Source: Caldimonas brevitalea (GTDB lineage Bacteria; Pseudomonadota; Gammaproteobacteria; Burkholderiales; Burkholderiaceae_C). From it: a stretch of DNA of 64,000 nucleotides. This document shows, piece by piece, positions 29,855 through 37,596 of the stretch (within the stretch, counting starts at the first letter, position 1; each line of letters begins with the position of its first letter). The stretch lies in assembly GCF_001017435.1 (NCBI RefSeq), contig NZ_CP011371.1:5642001-5706000 (forward strand), written 5' to 3'. Position numbers and translations under genes: made by a program. The notes below the pieces were generated by a model, which saw only the letters and a list, made by a program, of their open reading frames with translations, was not told the DNA's origin and made no database searches.

Positions 29855-32800
29855 TCACAGCCCTGCCATGCGGGGTGGCATCCTCGAACTTCGCAACTGC
29901 CAAGCCGCCCCGCCCAGCACCAGCGCTGCGACCGCGGCGGCGAGCCAGGCCTGTGCCAGTCGCTGCACCACCGCGTTGGCGCGCGGAGCAGGCATCACGG
30001 GCCGCAGCCGGATGCCGCGTGGCTCGGGAGCTGCCACCACAGGCGCGGGCGGCGAGACGTCCCTCCGAACACGGGGCACCGCCTCGGCCTCTCGTGCCGC
30101 GGCGGCCGCCGGCCTCGCAGGCGTTTGCAGCGCGGTCGCGGTCCATCGCTGCACCTCGACCGAGGCGTCCGGCCGCGGCGCCTGTCCCGACAGCGTCTGC
30201 AACAGTGCGGCCAACGTACGCCGTACCGTCGGATCGGGACGCCAGTACCCCTGGCGTTCGGCCTGCGCCAGCCGCTCCAGCGCCTGCGCATAGGCTTGCG
30301 GGTGGGCCCGCAGCCACTCGGGCACGCCGAGCCCGTGGCGGTCACGCACCAGGACGTCGTAAAACCCCTGCCAGTGGTCGTCGCGCACGCTGCCCGCATC
30401 GACCTGCTGCCAGCCCCAGGCGAACTGCACCGCCTTCACCACCTGCAAGCTGCCGGCATAACCTTCGGCGCGCTGGGCCGCCAGCCAGCCGGGGTGCAGG
30501 TAGCGGCTCTGCATCTCTAGCGCGATGCCGCGCGCTGCGCTCTGCGTGTGCGGCTCGCCGCTGTCCTCGATCTGGTTCACGTACAGCGCCAGGCCCTCGC
30601 GACGGCCGGCGCTGCGCGCGGCGGCGGCCAGGCCCCCGAGGTACTGGAACGGGTCGTCCGAGGTCAGCATGCCGTAGAGGTGGGAACTGCGCGACAGCAG
30701 CGCCGCATCAGTGCGACGCAGGTGGGCCGCCAACACGTCCGGACGGGCCACCGGGTCCGCCCCCGCCTCGCCCACCGGGTTGCCGTCGAGAAACGGCTGG
30801 CTCATCCGCTGTAGGAACAACCCGCCCAGGCGCGCGTCCTGGCGGGCCACACCGTCGGACTGCACCGCCTCGGCGATGCCGGTGCCGTAGTCGCCCGGCG
30901 TGTTGCCGAACACGCGCACCCGGCCCAGCCGTTCGGCCGCGTCAGCGGCGACGCCGTTGCGGGCCAGCTCGCGCGCCACCGCCCGGCTGGCCTCGGCCAC
31001 CACACCCTCGGGCTCGGCCGTGCTGACCGCCGCCACCGCCTTGTCGACCAAGGCCATCAAGGCCGGGAACTGGTCGCGGTAGGAGCCGCTGATCGACAGC
31101 AGCACGTCCACCCGCGGGCGCTTCAACTCGGCCTGCGGAATCACCCGCAGCCCCGTGGGTCGGCCGCTGTGGTCCCACACGGGTTCGACGCCGAGGGCGG
31201 CGAGGGCCTGGGCCTCCTGCACGCCTTGGTGGCGCAAGGTCTCGCCGGCCCACAGCGACAGTGCGATGCGTTGCGGCACCACATCGCCGTGCTCGCGTCG
31301 CCAGGCCGCCAACCAGTCGTCGAACAAGCGCTGCGCCGTCTGCCAGGCATGGCGGGTGGGCAAGCGGCTCGGGTCCAGCCCGGTCAGGTTGCGGCCGGTG
31401 GGCAGGCTGTCGGGGTTGCGGATCGGGTCGCCGCCGTAGGCGGCCGGCAGAAAGCGCCCTTCCAGCGCGCGCAGCAGCCCCGGCAGCTCGTTTTCGGTCG
31501 CGAGCAGCCGTTCGAGGGCCTGGGCGCGCAGCGCGAGGTCGCGCAAGGCTGCTGTGTCGATCGGCCGGCGCGCGGCGCGGTTGGGCACCGGGCCCTGCGG
31601 TTCGGGCGGGCGCAGGTCGAGCTGAGCGGCGGCCTCCGCGTCTTGCAGGGCGACGTCGAGCCAGCGCGCGGGCCGTGAGTCGGCGACACCGCGGTGGTCG
31701 ATCAGAAACGCCTCGTCGATGTCCTCGCCCAGCGCCTCGATCAACGGCTGGCGCAGCGCCTGCAAGATCGTCGTGCGGCGCGCAGACGGCTCGGGCACCC
31801 GGCCGAACACCGCCAGCCCCTGCGGCTGCGACGACTGCGCCAGCCGGTCCAGCCAGGGATGCAGCTGCTCGATGAAGCCGGCGAAGTCGTGGCCGATGCG
31901 CTCGGCGCTCCAGCCCAGGTCGCGGTGCAGCTGCTGCTCGACGAACTGGGCCAGCAGCGCGGCTTCGAGGGCGGCCTTGGTGGGGCCGTCGCCGGCCGTC
32001 TCCCACTCGTGCATCAGCTCGTGCAGGTGCGCCATGCGGGCGTTGAAGCCGGCCGGGGCGAACGAGGGCGTGCGGTGGCTGACCAGCGTGGCCCGGCCGC
32101 GACGCTTGGCGGTCAGCGCTTCGCCGAGGTTGTCGACGATGTAGGGGTAGACGACCGGCACATCGGCCAGCGGCAACAACGCATCGTCGTGCACGTCCAG
32201 GCCGCGCAGCTTGCCATCGGCCCACTCCTGCGTGCCGTGGGTGCCGAAGTGCACCAGGGCATGCGATTGGCGCGCCCACAGGTAGACGGCCAGGTAGTGG
32301 TGCGACAGGGCCACCCGGTTGCGGTGCGAGAACGGCTGCTGGCGGTACTTCAGCGTCTCCTCGCGCGGCGGCTGCGGCATCACGGTCAGGTGCCCGATCT
32401 GCAGGCGCGGGATCACGAACACTGGCTGCCCGCCCTGCTGCACCACATAGCGGCTGCGCTCGGGCGGGCCCCATTGCGCTTCGATGCGCTCGCGCACGCG
32501 CGGCGGCAGCCGGTCGAACCAGGCGCGGTAGTCGGCCAGCGGCAGCGCGGCGGCGGCATCCTGCGCCAGCAAGGCATGCAGGTCTGCACCCTCGTAGTAG
32601 GCCGCCAGCAAAGGTTTGAGTCGCTCGATCCAGACGGCCTCCGGCACCGCCTGCGTGCGATACCCGGCCTGCGCCAAGGCGCCGCTCACCACTTCCAGGC
32701 TGCGCGGCACGTTGAGGAAGGAGGCGCCGAAGTTGGTGGCGCCGGCCGGGTAGTTGTAGACCATCGCAACCAGCCGCTTGTCGGCATTGGGCGTGTCGCG

Positions 32801-33886
32801 CAGCGCCAGCCAGCGGGCCGCCTTGGCCACCACCGCGCGCGCCTGGGGCTCGATCAGCGACAGCCCCTCGCGCGGGTGGCCTTGCGCCGCGACCAGCAGC
32901 GGGTCAACGGCGCCGGCGGCCTCGGGCTGTGCCAGGTAGAACGGCACGTCGGTGGTGGCGAGCCCGCCGCTGTCGGCCTGCCAGGCGGCGATCGACCCGC
33001 TGCGGTAAGGCAGCGTCGCGAGCACCGGCACGTCCCAGCGCTGGAACAGCGGTTGCAGCGCGGCGCCGGGGGTCAGCAACTGGTGCGTCACCACCACACG
33101 CGCATGCAGCCGCCCGTCGACCTCCAGCAAAGCGCTCAAAGCCGGCGCGTCGAGCGACTGGCTGTAGGCCGCATAGGGCGCGAAGCCGGCTGCTTCGAAC
33201 CACTGCAGCCAGCGGTCCAGCCAGCCGGTGCTGCCGTCGACGAAATGGTGCCGGTGCACCAGCAGCACGACCGGCGCGCCGCGTGCCCTGCCCTCGCCGG
33301 CCTGCCAGCGGGCCAGTGCGCCGGCATCCGAAAACAGCCCCGGCGCACGCGGGTGGTACAGCGCCCGTGCTGGCAAGGGTTGCGGCGGCGGCAACACCGG
33401 CAACGCCCCGCCCTGCAAGGCGGCCTTTGCCAGCGTGAAGGCGTGTGCCGACTGGCGGGCGCCACCGGCTCGCAAATAGGCCGCGATACGCCCGGCCGGC
33501 GTGTCGCCGTCGGCCGTGTCGGTGTACAGCAGGCGGTCGGGGCGCCGCGCCTCGAAGCGTGCCACCTGCTCGGGCCCCAGCAGCGCCTCGAGGCGCGCCC
33601 GCACCGTCGCATGCGGCACGTCGACCCACACCCACTCGGCCTCGTCGAGGCCCGCCTGCAGCGCCTGCCGGGCGGCCCGGTCGTCACCCGGGCGCAGGCC
33701 GAACTCGACATGCCGCCACTCGAAGCCCGCGTCGGCCGCGGCGCTGGCCAGCAAGGCGCTGCGGGTGGTCGGCGTCACGTCGCTCGTCACCCACAGCAGC
33801 AGCGGTCGCGCCAACAGGGCCGGGGCGACGCACAGCAGCAGCGCCGTCAGCAGCAGCAGCGCGCAAGCGCGCCGCCAGGCGCTCAA
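29855..33886 (-). CDS. Exported, membrane-anchored CobN-type chelatase subunit
   Basis: A 1343-residue homologue of the large cobaltochelatase subunit CobN / magnesium chelatase H. Unusually, it has a signal peptide (about 1-26, ALLLLTALLLCVAPALLARP), and a C-terminal membrane helix (about 1311-1332, WLAAAVAALVLGGAAWQL) after an Ala/Pro/Arg-rich linker, so the body should face the periplasm. The CobN hallmark HFGTHGTQEWADGK lies near residue 545, with LSHHYLAVYLWARQSHALV before it. The TTG start overlaps the DUF2149 stop (TTGA), so translation is coupled. No CobS/CobT partners are present; the operon instead supplies ExbB/ExbD-like proteins behind a cobalamin riboswitch. A role in corrinoid or cobalt handling is inferred; chelatase activity is untested. 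Confidence 0.92.
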   Translation of the reverse strand: MSAWRRACALLLLTALLLCVAPALLARPLLLWVTSDVTPTTRSALLASAAADAGFEWRHVEFGLRPGDDRAARQALQAGLDEAEWVWVDVPHATVRARLEALLGPEQVARFEARRPDRLLYTDTADGDTPAGRIAAYLRAGGARQSAHAFTLAKAALQGGALPVLPPPQPLPARALYHPRAPGLFSDAGALARWQAGEGRARGAPVVLLVHRHHFVDGSTGWLDRWLQWFEAAGFAPYAAYSQSLDAPALSALLEVDGRLHARVVVTHQLLTPGAALQPLFQRWDVPVLATLPYRSGSIAAWQADSGGLATTDVPFYLAQPEAAGAVDPLLVAAQGHPREGLSLIEPQARAVVAKAARWLALRDTPNADKRLVAMVYNYPAGATNFGASFLNVPRSLEVVSGALAQAGYRTQAVPEAVWIERLKPLLAAYYEGADLHALLAQDAAAALPLADYRAWFDRLPPRVRERIEAQWGPPERSRYVVQQGGQPVFVIPRLQIGHLTVMPQPPREETLKYRQQPFSHRNRVALSHHYLAVYLWARQSHALVHFGTHGTQEWADGKLRGLDVHDDALLPLADVPVVYPYIVDNLGEALTAKRRGRATLVSHRTPSFAPAGFNARMAHLHELMHEWETAGDGPTKAALEAALLAQFVEQQLHRDLGWSAERIGHDFAGFIEQLHPWLDRLAQSSQPQGLAVFGRVPEPSARRTTILQALRQPLIEALGEDIDEAFLIDHRGVADSRPARWLDVALQDAEAAAQLDLRPPEPQGPVPNRAARRPIDTAALRDLALRAQALERLLATENELPGLLRALEGRFLPAAYGGDPIRNPDSLPTGRNLTGLDPSRLPTRHAWQTAQRLFDDWLAAWRREHGDVVPQRIALSLWAGETLRHQGVQEAQALAALGVEPVWDHSGRPTGLRVIPQAELKRPRVDVLLSISGSYRDQFPALMALVDKAVAAVSTAEPEGVVAEASRAVARELARNGVAADAAERLGRVRVFGNTPGDYGTGIAEAVQSDGVARQDARLGGLFLQRMSQPFLDGNPVGEAGADPVARPDVLAAHLRRTDAALLSRSSHLYGMLTSDDPFQYLGGLAAAARSAGRREGLALYVNQIEDSGEPHTQSAARGIALEMQSRYLHPGWLAAQRAEGYAGSLQVVKAVQFAWGWQQVDAGSVRDDHWQGFYDVLVRDRHGLGVPEWLRAHPQAYAQALERLAQAERQGYWRPDPTVRRTLAALLQTLSGQAPRPDASVEVQRWTATALQTPARPAAAAAREAEAVPRVRRDVSPPAPVVAAPEPRGIRLRPVMPAPRANAVVQRLAQAWLAAAVAALVLGGAAWQLRSSRMPPRMAGL

Positions 33887-34233
33887 GGGGTGGACCCGGC
33901 AGGCGACGACGAGGCCGCCGGCTCGGGTACGTAGATGACACTGCCATCGTCGAGCTTGTAGGCCACGCCCGCGCGCACGCCATTGCCCGCGCCGGCCGTG
34001 CCATCACCGCGCAAGCGCACCTCGCGGCCGTTCTCGCGCGTGACGATCTCCATGTCGGGCCGGCCGGCGTTGCGGATCACCGTGACGGTCGAGCCGGCCT
34101 CACGCTCGGCGCGCAAGGTCAGGGCCACCAGCAGGGCCGCGACGACGATCAGGAACACGTCGACCAGGTTGACGGCCGACAGCATCGGGTCGTCGTCCTC
34201 GTCGGCGAGCGGATGCAGGCTGTGGCGTCGCAT
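33883..34233 (-). CDS. DUF2149 protein, ExbD/TolR-like
   Basis: A 116-residue protein: acidic N-terminus (LADEDDDP), one membrane helix (about 24-42) and a small periplasmic domain ending in a Ser/Pro tail. The segment MLSAVNLVDVFLIVVAALL is strikingly like the N-terminal helix of ExbD/TolR, with Asp25 at the position of the proton-carrying aspartate in that family. DUF2149 is known from methanogens and some bacteria next to CobN and MotA/TolQ/ExbB genes; the ExbD analogy is my reading. It starts 10 bases after the channel gene and overlaps the CobN start. Confidence 0.85.
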   Translation of the reverse strand: MRRHSLHPLADEDDDPMLSAVNLVDVFLIVVAALLVALTLRAEREAGSTVTVIRNAGRPDMEIVTRENGREVRLRGDGTAGAGNGVRAGVAYKLDDGSVIYVPEPAASSSPAGSTP

Positions 34234-34243
34234 CGTCGCCCCC

Positions 34244-34711
34244 TCACTGCGCCAGGCCGCGGGCCAGCCGCACCGCGTGCAACTCGCTCAACAGCCAGCG
34301 GCGGCGCAGCGAATGCACCGCCAACGCGATGGCGGCGGCGGCCAGCGCCAGCACCACGCCCGAGAAGGCATTGCCGAAGCCGAGCAAGGTGCTGCCGCCG
34401 TCGCCCGAGGCCACGCCGGCGAGCGCCGGCCCGAGTGGGATCATCGTGGCGATCAGCCCCAGCAAGGGGGCCATGCGGGCCAGCAGCCGCATCGGCTCCA
34501 ACTGCCGCATCGCGGCCAGCTCGAGCGCATCGAGCGAGACTTCGTCGCCTTGCGGCAAACAGCGCCAGCGCGGGTCGCGCCAGCGTTGCCACGCTTCGGC
34601 CAGCGTGCGGCCGAGTGCCCACAACGCCGCCGCGAAGCACGCCAGCACCCCCAGCGAGACCGGCCACAACAGCCATTGCGCCACTTGCGCCATGCCGGCT
34701 TCGAGCATCAT
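34244..34711 (-). CDS. MotA/TolQ/ExbB-like proton channel protein
   Basis: A short (155-residue) inner-membrane protein with three helices: about 11-33, and two in the ExbB-like core MAPLLGLIATMIPLGPAL (about 79-96) and AFSGVVLALAAAAIALAV (about 115-132). The spacing and the GLIATMIP...AL pattern match MotA/TolQ/ExbB channels, which are usually over 220 residues; here the cytoplasmic loop is cut to about 40 residues. Two adjacent ATGs (34711, 34708) follow a GGAG site. It is the first large gene after the cobalamin riboswitch and is expected to form a proton-driven stator with the DUF2149 protein. Confidence 0.85.
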   Translation of the reverse strand: MMLEAGMAQVAQWLLWPVSLGVLACFAAALWALGRTLAEAWQRWRDPRWRCLPQGDEVSLDALELAAMRQLEPMRLLARMAPLLGLIATMIPLGPALAGVASGDGGSTLLGFGNAFSGVVLALAAAAIALAVHSLRRRWLLSELHAVRLARGLAQ

Positions 34712-34809
34712 CGCCACGCTCCGGTGAGATGGGACGGCAACCGGCAGGCAAGGCAGGCCCAGGCGGTCGGCAGCAGGCCGGCCTGGCAGCAGGAAGGTCG
34801 TTCGGACAT
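34708..34809 (-). CDS. Candidate cysteine-rich micro-ORF in the riboswitch leader
   Basis: A 33-codon frame (MSERPSCCQAGLL...; Cys at 7, 8, 19 and 22) in the leader between riboswitch and channel gene. Its TGA overlaps the first ATG of the channel gene (ATGA), the arrangement of coupled operon genes. The same frame extends in-phase to an ATG at 34863 (51 codons, one further Cys). No good ribosome site precedes either ATG, so it may be chance. If real, paired cysteines would suit metal binding. Confidence 0.2.
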   Translation of the reverse strand: MSERPSCCQAGLLPTAWACLACRLPSHLTGAWR

Positions 34810-34903
34810 GGCGGAACTCGTGATGGCAACCCGCCCGGCCGCTTCCCCGCAGCCCAGGCGCATGCAGCCACGCAGCAGCATCAGTCGCAGCGCGTGGCCC
34901 CCT

Positions 34904-35126
34904 GTTGGCCGGTCTCCGGGCTGGCGGACATGTGCCCGAGTCCTTCCCGGGCCACGCTCGGCCCAGTGGACGTCGTACAGGCACCGAGCGCGAGACCCTG
35001 AGGGTCGACCCGCTCGTCCGCATACCGTTGCGGGGGCAGCTCGGCTTGGAGGCTGCGCAGCATCGCGCGGCGCCCTGCCGATTCCCGTTTCACGGTGCCG
35101 GCAGAGCCGCCGGCACGCGCACCAAC
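34904..35126 (-). promoter_or_regulatory. Cobalamin riboswitch
   Basis: Read leftward, all consensus blocks occur in order: closing stem GTTGG (35126-35122) paired with CCAAC (34908-34904); GTGCCGGC/GCCGGCAC hairpin; GGGAATCGG; GCCCCCGCAAC (35037-35027); CCACTGG (34969-34963); GGGAAGG (34948-34942); and the B12 box AGCCCGGAGACCGGCC (34922-34907). It would repress the channel-DUF2149-CobN operon when adenosylcobalamin is abundant. The 190-base stretch to the first gene must hold the expression platform; a classic T-tailed terminator is not seen, so control of translation or Rho-type termination is more likely. Confidence 0.93.
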
Positions 35127-35283: not shown

Positions 35284-37596
35284 ATGAGCGATCCCAAGAT
35301 CGAGTTCTATCCCTACCCGGCCGGCGGCTGGGGCGCGCTGCGCAGTGCCGCGCGCCAGCTGGTGCAGCACCGCATCGCCGCCAAGGGCACGCGCACGCTG
35401 TTGTCGGCCAACCAGCCCGACGGCTTCGACTGCCCCGGCTGCGCCTGGCCCGACCGCCAGCACACCTCGACCTTCGAGTTTTGCGAAAACGGCGTCAAAG
35501 CCGTCGCCGCAGAGGCCACGTCGCGCCGCGCGACGCCCGAACTGATCGGGCAGCACCGCGTCGCCGAACTGGCCGCCTGGTCCGACCACGACCTCGAAGC
35601 GCTGGGCCGCCTGACCGAGCCGATGGCCTATGACGCCGCCACCGACCGCTACCACGCGGTCAGCTGGGACAGCGCCTTCGAGCGTATCGCCGCGCACCTG
35701 CGGGCGCTGCCGCACCCCGACCAGGCGATCTTCTACACCTCGGGGCGCACCAGCAACGAGGCGGCCTTCCTGTACCAGCTGTTGGTGCGCGAGTACGGCA
35801 CCAACAACTTCCCCGACTGCTCCAACATGTGTCACGAGCCGAGCGGCACCGGCTTGAAGCAAAGCATCGGCGTCGGCAAGGGCAGCGTCACGCTGGCCGA
35901 CTTCGAACAGGCCGATGCGATCCTGATCTTTGGCCAGAACCCCGGCACCAACCACCCCCGCATGCTCGGCGAGCTGCGCGCCGCGTCGCGCCGGGGCGCC
36001 CGCATCTTGAGCTTCAACCCGCTGCGTGAACGCGGGCTGGAGCGCTTCGCCGACCCGCAGAACGCCCTCGAGATGGCCACGCTCGGCTCAACGCCGATCA
36101 GCAGCGACTACTTCCAGCTGCGCATCGGCGGTGACCTCGCGGCCGTCAAGGGCCTGTGCAAGGCGCTGTTCGAACTCGACGACGCCGCGCGCGCCGCAGG
36201 GCGGCCCCGGTTGCTCGACGTCGACTTCATCGCCGAGCACACCCACGGCCTCGATGCCTTCGAAGCCGACGTGCGGGCCGAGTCGTGGGACGCACTGACC
36301 GAAGCCTCGGGCCTGAGCCTCGACCAACTGCGCGCCGCCGCGCTCACGTACGCACGGGCCGCGCGGGTCATCGCCTGCTGGGGCATGGGCATCACGCAGC
36401 ACCGCCATGCGGTGGCGACGGTGCAGATGATCACCAATCTGTTGCTGCTGCGCGGCAACCTGGGCCGACCCGGCGCCGGCGTCTGCCCGGTGCGCGGCCA
36501 CAGCAACGTGCAGGGCGACCGCACCATGGGCATCCACGAGAAGCCGTCGGCGCAGTTCCTCGACCGGTTGGGCGCCGTGTTCGGCTTCGAGCCGCCCCGC
36601 GCGCCCGGCCACGACACGATTGCGGCCATCGAGGCCATGCAGCGAGGCGACGCGCGCGTGTTTTTCGCGCTGGGCGGCAATTTCGCTGTGGCGACACCCG
36701 ACACCACCCTCACCCAGGCCGCGCTGCGCCGCTGCGACCTGACGGTGCATGTGTCGACCAAGCTCAACCGCAGCCACCTGGTGCACGGCCGGGAAGCGCT
36801 GGTGCTGCCCTGCCTCGGCCGCACCGAACTCGACCTGCAGAACGGCACGCCGCAAGCCATCACGGTCGAAGACTCGATGAGCATGGTGCACCTGTCGAGC
36901 GGGCGCAATCCGCCGGCGTCGCCGCACCTGCTGTCCGAGCCGATGATCGTGGCCCGCCTGGCCAGCGCCGTGCTGCCACACAGCAAGACGCCGTGGCGCT
37001 GGCTGGTGGAAGACTACGACCGCATCCGCGACAAGATCGCCGAGGTCTTCGACGACTTCGCCGACTTCAACCGCCGGGTGCGCACGCCCGGCGGCTTCCG
37101 GCTGCGCAACACCGCGTCGGAGCGGGTCTGGCTGACCGGCTCGGGCAAGGCGCACTTCATGGCCCATGCCCTGCCGCGGCAGACCACGCCGGCTGAGGCC
37201 GCTGGCCAGCGCGTCTTCACGCTCGCCACCGTGCGGGCGCACGACCAGTACAACACCACGGTCTATGGCCTGGACGACCGCTACCGCGGCGTCTTCGGCC
37301 ACCGGCGTGTCGTGTTCATCCACCGCGACGACCTGCAGGCACTGGGCCTGGCGCCCGGCGAATGGGTCGACCTGACCAGCGTGTTCGGCGATGGTGTCGA
37401 GCGGCGCGCCGAGCGTTTCCTGCTGGTCGAGTACGACATCCCGCGCGGCTGTTTGGCCAGCTACTACCCCGAAACCAACACGCTGGTGCCGCTGGCGAGC
37501 CACGCCGAAGGCGCGCGCACGCCGGCGTCCAAGTCGATCCCGGTGGTGCTGACCCGGCATGTCGGCCAGGCCGAACCGGGAGCGCCGGCGTCTTGA
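35284..37596 (+). CDS. FdhF/YdeP-family molybdopterin oxidoreductase
   Basis: A 770-residue molybdopterin enzyme of the YdeP branch of formate dehydrogenase-like proteins. CPGCAWPDRQH sits at about 50-60; the active-site region is YTSGRTSNEAAFLYQ and NMCHEPSGTGLKQS (about 181-194) with a cysteine; GMGITQHRHA and RGHSNVQGDRTMGI bind the pterin, and the C-terminal domain has VRAHDQYNTTVYGLDDRYRG. There is no N-terminal ferredoxin-like cysteine cluster and no in-frame TGA. The physiological substrate is not established; formate or an acid-stress redox role is possible. FdhD is coupled directly downstream. A GAAGG site lies about 9 bases before the ATG. Confidence 0.93.
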   Translation: MSDPKIEFYPYPAGGWGALRSAARQLVQHRIAAKGTRTLLSANQPDGFDCPGCAWPDRQHTSTFEFCENGVKAVAAEATSRRATPELIGQHRVAELAAWSDHDLEALGRLTEPMAYDAATDRYHAVSWDSAFERIAAHLRALPHPDQAIFYTSGRTSNEAAFLYQLLVREYGTNNFPDCSNMCHEPSGTGLKQSIGVGKGSVTLADFEQADAILIFGQNPGTNHPRMLGELRAASRRGARILSFNPLRERGLERFADPQNALEMATLGSTPISSDYFQLRIGGDLAAVKGLCKALFELDDAARAAGRPRLLDVDFIAEHTHGLDAFEADVRAESWDALTEASGLSLDQLRAAALTYARAARVIACWGMGITQHRHAVATVQMITNLLLLRGNLGRPGAGVCPVRGHSNVQGDRTMGIHEKPSAQFLDRLGAVFGFEPPRAPGHDTIAAIEAMQRGDARVFFALGGNFAVATPDTTLTQAALRRCDLTVHVSTKLNRSHLVHGREALVLPCLGRTELDLQNGTPQAITVEDSMSMVHLSSGRNPPASPHLLSEPMIVARLASAVLPHSKTPWRWLVEDYDRIRDKIAEVFDDFADFNRRVRTPGGFRLRNTASERVWLTGSGKAHFMAHALPRQTTPAEAAGQRVFTLATVRAHDQYNTTVYGLDDRYRGVFGHRRVVFIHRDDLQALGLAPGEWVDLTSVFGDGVERRAERFLLVEYDIPRGCLASYYPETNTLVPLASHAEGARTPASKSIPVVLTRHVGQAEPGAPAS

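Follow-up and report, generated by a model that had tools for sequence, protein, structure and literature searches.

Described relatives of the locus

CobN homologues encoded together with a MotA/TolQ/ExbB-type protein and a DUF2149 protein have been met before, and such a set, led by a cobalamin riboswitch, is the subject of this analysis of a 64 kb stretch of the Caldimonas brevitalea genome (contig NZ_CP011371.1; 'the window'). The hmu operon combines the same protein families as the Caldimonas trio (PMC10434189), and its product HmuS, a relative of the CobN in the window, has been described as a heme de-chelatase (PMC12583661). An earlier note on this DNA had stated that no mechanism was shown for CobN/DUF2149/TolQ sets, a statement overtaken by the reaction, heme de-chelation, reported for HmuS (PMC12583661). 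The role of the other two proteins has been drawn in two ways: HmuU/HmuV as powering the receptor HmuR (PMC12583661), and, by another group, HmuTUV as a heme transporter of the inner membrane (PMC13227078). The latter source leaves room for an influence of HmuT/U/V on the activity of HmuS, which comes nearest to the idea that a stator drives HmuS; a published claim that a stator drives CobN or HmuS was not seen in the open-access library searched, in which five papers mention DUF2149. A second set, PA1922-PA1925, is Zur-regulated, and its role is left undetermined in the available parts of the reports, which assign PA1924 to TonB-dependent transport (PMC4542158, PMC8456098, PMC9431628, PMC13083405). 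The name BtuS for the exported CobN type is traced to Rodionov et al. 2003, as cited in PMC6460266, where export and a membrane anchor are predicted for BtuS1/2 of B. fragilis.

The trio of the window is a member of a widespread family in which an exported CobN is combined with a stator made of an ExbB-like protein (ExbB') and DUF2149. We somewhat favour the reading that it constitutes a B12-repressed, proton-driven, extracytoplasmic corrinoid chelatase that serves salvage. The direct evidence consists of the gene set, the riboswitch, the topology signals, the CobN-type active site, the operon context of the relatives and the fact that most carriers are without ring synthesis.

A riboswitch-led trio in Caldimonas brevitalea

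The riboswitch and the three genes are all located on the minus strand:

35141-34890, minus strand: cobalamin riboswitch aptamer RF00174 (cmscan 47.4 bits, gathering 31.5, E 9.5e-9)
34711-34244, minus strand: ExbB'/TolQ-like channel protein, 155 amino acids (family hhalign to ExbB)
34233-33883, minus strand: DUF2149 protein, 116 amino acids (PF09919, 72.9 bits)
34159..34161, minus strand: Asp25 of DUF2149, at the place of the proton-carrying Asp of ExbD/TolR (hhalign alignment with the ExbD Asp)
33886-29855, minus strand: CobN homologue of the BtuS type, apparently exported, 1343 amino acids (PF02514, 857.5 bits; NF004644, 1414.8 bits)
33809..33886, minus strand: signal-peptide-like N-terminus of CobN (sequence)
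32234..32251, minus strand: HFGTHG motif of CobN, residues 546-551 (alignment)
30632..30661, minus strand: SDDPFQYLGG motif of CobN, residues 1076-1085 (alignment)
29894..29950, minus strand: predicted C-terminal membrane anchor of CobN with basic tail (hydropathy)

The RF00174 match covers the full aptamer (model positions 1-189), lies above the curated gathering threshold and is the sole match at that threshold within the 64 kb; an expression platform or terminator was not recognised in the riboswitch leader. The genes are tightly packed, with a gap of 10 bases between ExbB' and DUF2149 (34234-34243) and an overlap of the DUF2149 stop and the CobN start in the sequence TTGA (33883-33886). 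This arrangement is exactly as the earlier note had described it. The span given there is right for the genes and falls short in its end at 35126, as the aptamer reaches 35141.

The putative stator proteins

The ExbB' protein of the window has three hydrophobic stretches, judged by eye. As a single sequence it stays under the PF01618 cut-off (15.9 of 22.9 bits, E 0.011), but the family alignment (18 rows, 14 invariant columns) matched canonical ExbB over 147 columns across the channel (hhalign P 3e-9, probability 96%). When the ExbB' profile was compared with the PDB, MotA and ExbB chains were recovered only at E 0.024-0.064 and worse; the PDB matches of the single sequence were irrelevant and have been discarded.

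DUF2149 is modelled as one transmembrane helix followed by a small beta domain: the AlphaFold2 model contains a helix at residues 16-46 and five short strands, at low confidence (predicted local distance difference test score 67.8). The helix carries Asp25, which is invariant in 81 aligned sequences and which hhalign places on the ExbD aspartate, just as had been proposed for this DNA before. Profile comparison of DUF2149 with ExbD yielded P values of 3.5e-5 and 1.3e-4 (probability 72% and 54%), with controls at P 0.013-0.68. The likeness to ExbD/TolR is limited to the transmembrane helix. An ExbD-like soluble domain found no support: the soluble part gave no ExbD match, the model is of low confidence and no PDB match was obtained at E 0.001. 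PF02472 was not found in the DUF2149 protein either, for which hmmscan at E up to 10 returned DUF2149 only.

The CobN homologue: topology and active site

The CobN of the window appears to be an exported, membrane-anchored protein, as judged by sequence rules, which agree with the signal peptide and C-terminal anchor claimed earlier. The signal-peptide rule is satisfied by 12 of the 14 CobN proteins of the window's type and fires also in 4 of 18 cytosolic relatives, whereas the hydrophobic C-terminal anchor is found in 14/14 and 0/18, respectively. Among the stator-linked CobN frames taken, with the tally restricted to frames over 1100 amino acids, the anchor was present in 73 of 75.

The fold and the active-site motifs of cobaltochelatase CobN are present in the protein. 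Both histidines of the HFGTHG motif are invariant in 41 aligned rows, and His550 matches the catalytic His538 of HmuS, the histidine of its HFG(T/A)HG signature. The second motif, DDPFQYLGG, resembles the sequences SDDYFQYHGG and SDDYYQFEGG of cobaltochelatases, and H(F/V)GTHG and DDPFQYLGG occur together in all 14 carriers of the window's type. The HmuS motif LSLDHxxEFMGG, with its second axial His and Glu, was not found in the window CobN, which has LTSDDPFQYLGG; in particular, Asp-Asp takes the place of the Asp-His of HmuS. The sequence alignment between the two proteins begins only at residue 298, and the head-neck heme site of HmuS (Met79/His254) lies before that point. From these alignments the active site is to be called CobN-like and not HmuS-like.

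Two observations on the wider family may be added. The exported protein passes the NCBI equivalog model NF004644 ('cobaltochelatase subunit CobN') at 1414.8 bits, so that annotation based on this model conceals the exported type behind the name of the cytosolic enzyme. Furthermore, the CobN relative in a receptor-ExbB'-DUF2149 operon at L024:10219-14169 aligns without either active-site motif and is possibly non-catalytic.

Distribution, gene order and riboswitches in relatives

PF09919 was detected in 28 of 200 genomes drawn from the family, 11 of 299 drawn from the phylum and 1 of 14 control genomes (Methanosarcina acetivorans). The nearest named DUF2149 proteins are those of Aquabacterium sp. 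A7-Y and Eleftheria terrae. We examined the neighbourhoods of 31 of the 32 DUF2149 matches in the family draw (all but G314, which lies at the end of its contig) and of all ten phylum matches in other genomes. Nearly all DUF2149 genomes (35/37) have a CobN, and within the family two layouts prevail. In type 1, the sister type (15 loci), a TonB-receptor-like gene and CobN lie ahead of ExbB'-DUF2149, and the CobN is 38-42% identical to that of the window. In type 2 (14 loci, the window included) ExbB'-DUF2149-CobN stands beside B12 genes, and the identity is 45-70%. The neighbours of type 2, scanned over stretches that stop about 8 kb away and with the window and L083, the contig of which ends, omitted (n=12), comprised BtuF, BtuD and CobB (12/12), FecCD and BtuB (11/12), CobD (8/12) and CobQ (2/12). 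Individual type 2 or related examples add CobU (L075), BluB with CobO (L077 and L029) and CobO (L085); a CobC-type decarboxylase was seen in such examples below its cut-off.

In a CobN tree from a quick search on 64 rows picked by hand, which left out the carrier rows L080, L081 and L085, the 11 of 14 type 2 carriers that were placed form one clade (Shimodaira-Hasegawa-like approximate likelihood ratio test support, SH-aLRT, 100). The exported rows L028, L029 and L196, which have long branches, are separated from the other exported rows at the deepest split and stand with the cytosolic ones; the exported proteins therefore do not form a clean single clade.

RF00174 precedes BtuB or the operon in all ten type 2 loci that reach the operon start, and it was found in none of the 18 loci scanned that are of type 1 or resemble it, one of which (L064) extends only about 0.3 kb past the receptor match. 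In 19 distant loci, selected by length from 65 bacterial ones, RF00174 was found in 13, and in 12 of these it lies on the strand of the trio and upstream of it; L126, L142, L163, L165, L172 and L176 were without it. Directly before DUF2162-ExbB'-DUF2149, near the arrangement in the window, it occurs in L125, L127, L131 and L140, and further matches were found at L020 (Mariprofundaceae, same contig as L117) and L029. The CobN of L029 is outside the type 2 clade, although the trio at that locus has CobB on one side and CobO on the other; the trio and B12 salvage genes thus seem to have met more than once. Cobalamin riboswitches may also be clustered before the module, with three at L131:5617-7473 and two at L155:942-1579.

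With a Zur-box consensus, no match clearly above shuffles was found in the 18 Burkholderiales sister-type loci. Zur-box-like sites were found in L024, L025 and L026, which belong to other groups, with 3, 2 and 3 mismatches against 4-5 in shuffles.

Corrin synthesis in the host and in related genomes

The host genome is a single contig of 6.48 Mb with one PF02514 place, the CobN of the trio. The absence of CobS/CobT asserted earlier stands for CobT, as PF06213 had no match in the whole genome; CobS was not searched for. Three cobalamin riboswitches are present, one of them that of the window. The second leads a corrin operon with a CbiM-like permease, a CobM-like frame (by eye), a CbiX family protein, CobH, CbiE-CbiT, CobI and CbiG-CobJ. 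The host cell thus makes corrins with what seems to be an early chelatase of the CbiX family, and for this step the trio should be dispensable. The permease that heads this operon (L007:2811-3440; own genome 597810-598439) has no CbiN/Q/O among the neighbours scanned. The third riboswitch leads BtuB-like, FecCD, ATP-binding cassette (ABC) and CobB genes; a periplasmic binding protein, CobD and CobQ are encoded close by.

CobH (PF02570) is required by both routes to the corrin ring. It was not found in 12 of the 14 genomes with the window's type, and is also missing in G282, the genome of L029. Considering these 12 carriers, the trio would serve corrinoid salvage rather than de novo synthesis, and we regard a role in salvage as likely. 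Of the corrinoid or cobalt handling proposed before, the corrinoid link is upheld by the riboswitch and by the operon context of relatives, while cobalt supply for de novo synthesis does not fit the 12 of 14 genomes without CobH.

As to the immediate surroundings, the flanking genes scanned are unrelated: a divergent molybdopterin oxidoreductase at 35284 and, on the other flank of the trio, a sodium/proton exchanger in 28771-27488.

The probable client of the putative stator

The locus set consists of the best 80 of 107 confirmed loci, 65 bacterial and 15 archaeal, the latter selected by record title. ExbB' adjoins DUF2149 in 63 of the 65 bacterial loci (both misses begin at a contig end) and in all 15 archaeal ones. 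CobN lies within 54 of the 65, and the other 11 have a contig end close by on one side or both. A canonical ExbD and/or TonB match was also present in 13 of the 65, a count which for TonB depends on one query sequence, and ExbD and CobN occur together in seven. The clearest operon with a DUF2149 stator beside a separate ExbB-ExbD-TonB is L020:505-14095, which runs riboswitch, receptor, DUF2162, ExbB', DUF2149, binding protein/CbiZ fusion, CobN, CbiK, binding protein, ExbB, ExbD, TonB. The fusion of a periplasmic binding protein with CbiZ suggests corrinoid remodelling outside the cytoplasm; CbiZ, a corrinoid-remodelling amidohydrolase, was found by tblastn in 20 of the 80 loci. DUF2162, a predicted transporter family, recurs just upstream of ExbB' in many of L117-L191, in Desulfobacterota and archaea, and our guess is that it is the counterpart of HmuT in hmu operons.

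Archaea have no outer membrane. CobN is present in all 15 archaeal genomes that carry ExbB'-DUF2149, and the archaeal CobN frames L206-L209 have a hydrophobic C-terminal anchor; in two of these frames a propeller-like stretch in front was recognised by eye. Because archaea without an outer membrane carry the stator and because operons have it beside ExbB-ExbD-TonB, the stator would serve CobN itself, a link that we consider reasonably probable. Overall, ExbB'-DUF2149 appears to be a stator that serves large extracytoplasmic proteins anchored at their C-terminus, with CobN as the chief one.

Proposed function and alternatives

The following course of events is proposed. At low adenosylcobalamin the riboswitch would be expected to permit expression of the trio. 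ExbB' and DUF2149 would then assemble into an ion-driven inner-membrane stator, with protons flowing past the invariant Asp of DUF2149, and this stator would act on the C-terminally anchored, extracytoplasmic CobN instead of the CobST ATPases; in other words, it may replace the AAA+ motor for the exported CobN. CobN would bind corrins that enter via BtuB and insert, exchange or otherwise process the central metal, and the processed corrins would reach the cell interior via BtuFCD. The favoured reaction would be the insertion or exchange of cobalt in scavenged corrins that are metal-free or wrongly metallated; that metal insertion or exchange is the actual chemistry of this CobN we hold to be possible and rather doubtful. 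The proton coupling, CobN as the client, and the reaction with its metal direction are what we infer here.

Several points weigh against this reading. Purified recombinant HmuS produces protoporphyrin IX (PMC12583661), so that the stator is perhaps not needed for that chemistry. CobB and CobO work in the cytoplasm, whereas CobN appears exported. The likeness of DUF2149 to ExbD is restricted to one transmembrane helix, and the DUF2149 profile, compared with the PDB at a limit of E 10, matched no ExbD/TolR chain. It did return the designed helical protein 8qag at E 1.2e-4, a match taken for hydrophobic chance, and helix composition can thus mislead. CobN lies inside the locus in only 4 of the 15 archaeal loci, and three archaeal genomes show only the cytosolic type. 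In five archaeal loci of the Methanosarcinales type (L177, L183, L190, L192 and L195; no CobN nearby) a giant surface protein with a C-terminal helix precedes ExbB'-DUF2149, upstream of about 8400; CARDB and PQQ domains were present in the three that were checked. In L073:6375-8729 and L079:6459-8684 ExbB'-DUF2149 is directly followed by a histidine kinase, and neither of these two genomes of the family has a PF02514 match. These neighbours imply that CobN is not the sole possible client, and the giant surface proteins are possible other clients of the same stator. Finally, CobB was above its cut-off in 103 of 200 family genomes against 34 of 200 for CobH. CobB without CobH is therefore usual in the family and no proof of metal-free corrin substrates, an argument that our own control has weakened.

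Among the alternatives, one holds that CobN is an HmuS-like periplasmic de-chelatase, stator-driven or not, that strips iron from heme, or cobalt or zinc from complexes, to feed metal uptake. HmuS does so with heme (PMC12583661), the sister type shares its gene set with the Zur-regulated PA1922-PA1925, and a CbiM-like cobalt permease is under another riboswitch in the host genome. We nevertheless find it not very likely: the second axial His of HmuS is an Asp in the window CobN, cobalt under B12 control gains little for a cell unable to build corrins, and destroying B12 during B12 scarcity would be self-defeating.

A role in transport, with CobN merely co-operonic, would have ExbB'-DUF2149 power TonB and a receptor (here BtuB) or form part of an inner-membrane importer, as drawn for HmuTUV (PMC13227078). 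Such genes have indeed been assigned to TonB-dependent uptake (PMC12583661, PMC8456098, PMC4542158), and a TonB-dependent receptor is a common neighbour. On the other hand, the pair is kept in archaea without an outer membrane and in operons with their own ExbB-ExbD-TonB, no receptor gene was found among the window neighbours scanned, and the host genome has other ExbD copies (7 PF02472 (ExbD/TolR) places). These counter-arguments touch the TonB version only and not the inner-membrane importer; taken as a whole we regard the transport role as unlikely.

Thirdly, CobN could be an energised binding or hand-over protein that passes corrinoids from BtuB to BtuF with the metal unchanged. The place of the operon between outer- and inner-membrane B12 transport genes would suit this. 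The relative at L024 aligns without the two active-site motifs and receptor, stator and CobN are retained together there, so that the chelatase site may be dispensable there. Considering that both catalytic motifs are retained in all 14 type 2 carriers, hand-over is quite unlikely.

That the trio inserts cobalt late in de novo B12 synthesis, the stator standing in for CobST, is highly improbable and has been dropped as its main role given the absence of CobH in 12 of 14 carriers: the gene order CobB - ExbB' - DUF2149 - CobN - BluB - CobO in L077 mirrors the late pathway and CobT was not found in the host, but CobN looks exported, the host corrin operon includes a CbiX-family early chelatase, and the carrier G415 has an ordinary cytosolic CobN as well.

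Returning to the corrinoid-chelatase reading, its general form is a proposal that we advance tentatively, with slightly short of even confidence. ExbB'-DUF2149 would be a new class of ion-driven stator, present in bacteria and archaea, with an exported metal-tetrapyrrole chelatase as its client instead of TonB, TolA or a flagellar rotor. It would take the part that AAA+ ATPases play with cytosolic CobN and ChlH, in heme, zinc-responsive and corrinoid variants, of which the window would hold the corrinoid one, with scavenged corrins still outside the cell interior as its substrates. Should this be correct, the ExbB/MotA motor family would gain a new use, the driving of a chelatase, which would also explain how CobN relatives can work where ATP is absent. 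A single mechanism would then cover the heme, zinc-responsive and corrinoid operons, the printed TonB assignment of HmuU/HmuV and PA1924 would need correcting, and the trio would mark a corrin salvage route in bacteria that are unable to build the ring.

Comparison with known systems

The trio resembles HmuS-HmuU-HmuV of Bacteroides and Porphyromonas (hmuYRSTUV), which likewise joins an exported, anchored CobN homologue to a MotA/TolQ/ExbB protein and DUF2149 (PMC10434189, PMC13227078), and the HFGTHG histidine of HmuS is conserved in the window CobN. The hmu operon differs in its heme and iron regulation and in its partners HmuY, HmuR and HmuT, and HmuS, the heme de-chelatase (PMC12583661), has LSLDHxxEFMGG where the window CobN has SDDPFQYLGG. 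PA1922-PA1925 of Pseudomonas aeruginosa (receptor, CobN-like, ExbB/D-like, DUF2149) represent the same family set. The type 1 sister clade has the same genes as that cluster, a likeness by gene content. Unlike the window, PA1922-PA1925 belong to a Zur-regulated zinc response (PMC9431628, PMC4542158), and the riboswitch was found in 0 of 18 sister-type loci scanned. For the BtuS family no stator mechanism is given in the available part of PMC6460266; the window type is associated with corrinoid genes. In comparison with the CobNST cobaltochelatase, the window CobN is predicted to be exported and anchored, stator genes stand beside it instead, and CobT was not found in the genome. With ExbB-ExbD-TonB and TolQRA, finally, the module shares an ExbB homologue and a transmembrane helix with an Asp; it differs from them in that no TonB/TolA is part of it, that DUF2149 replaces ExbD, and that it occurs in archaea.

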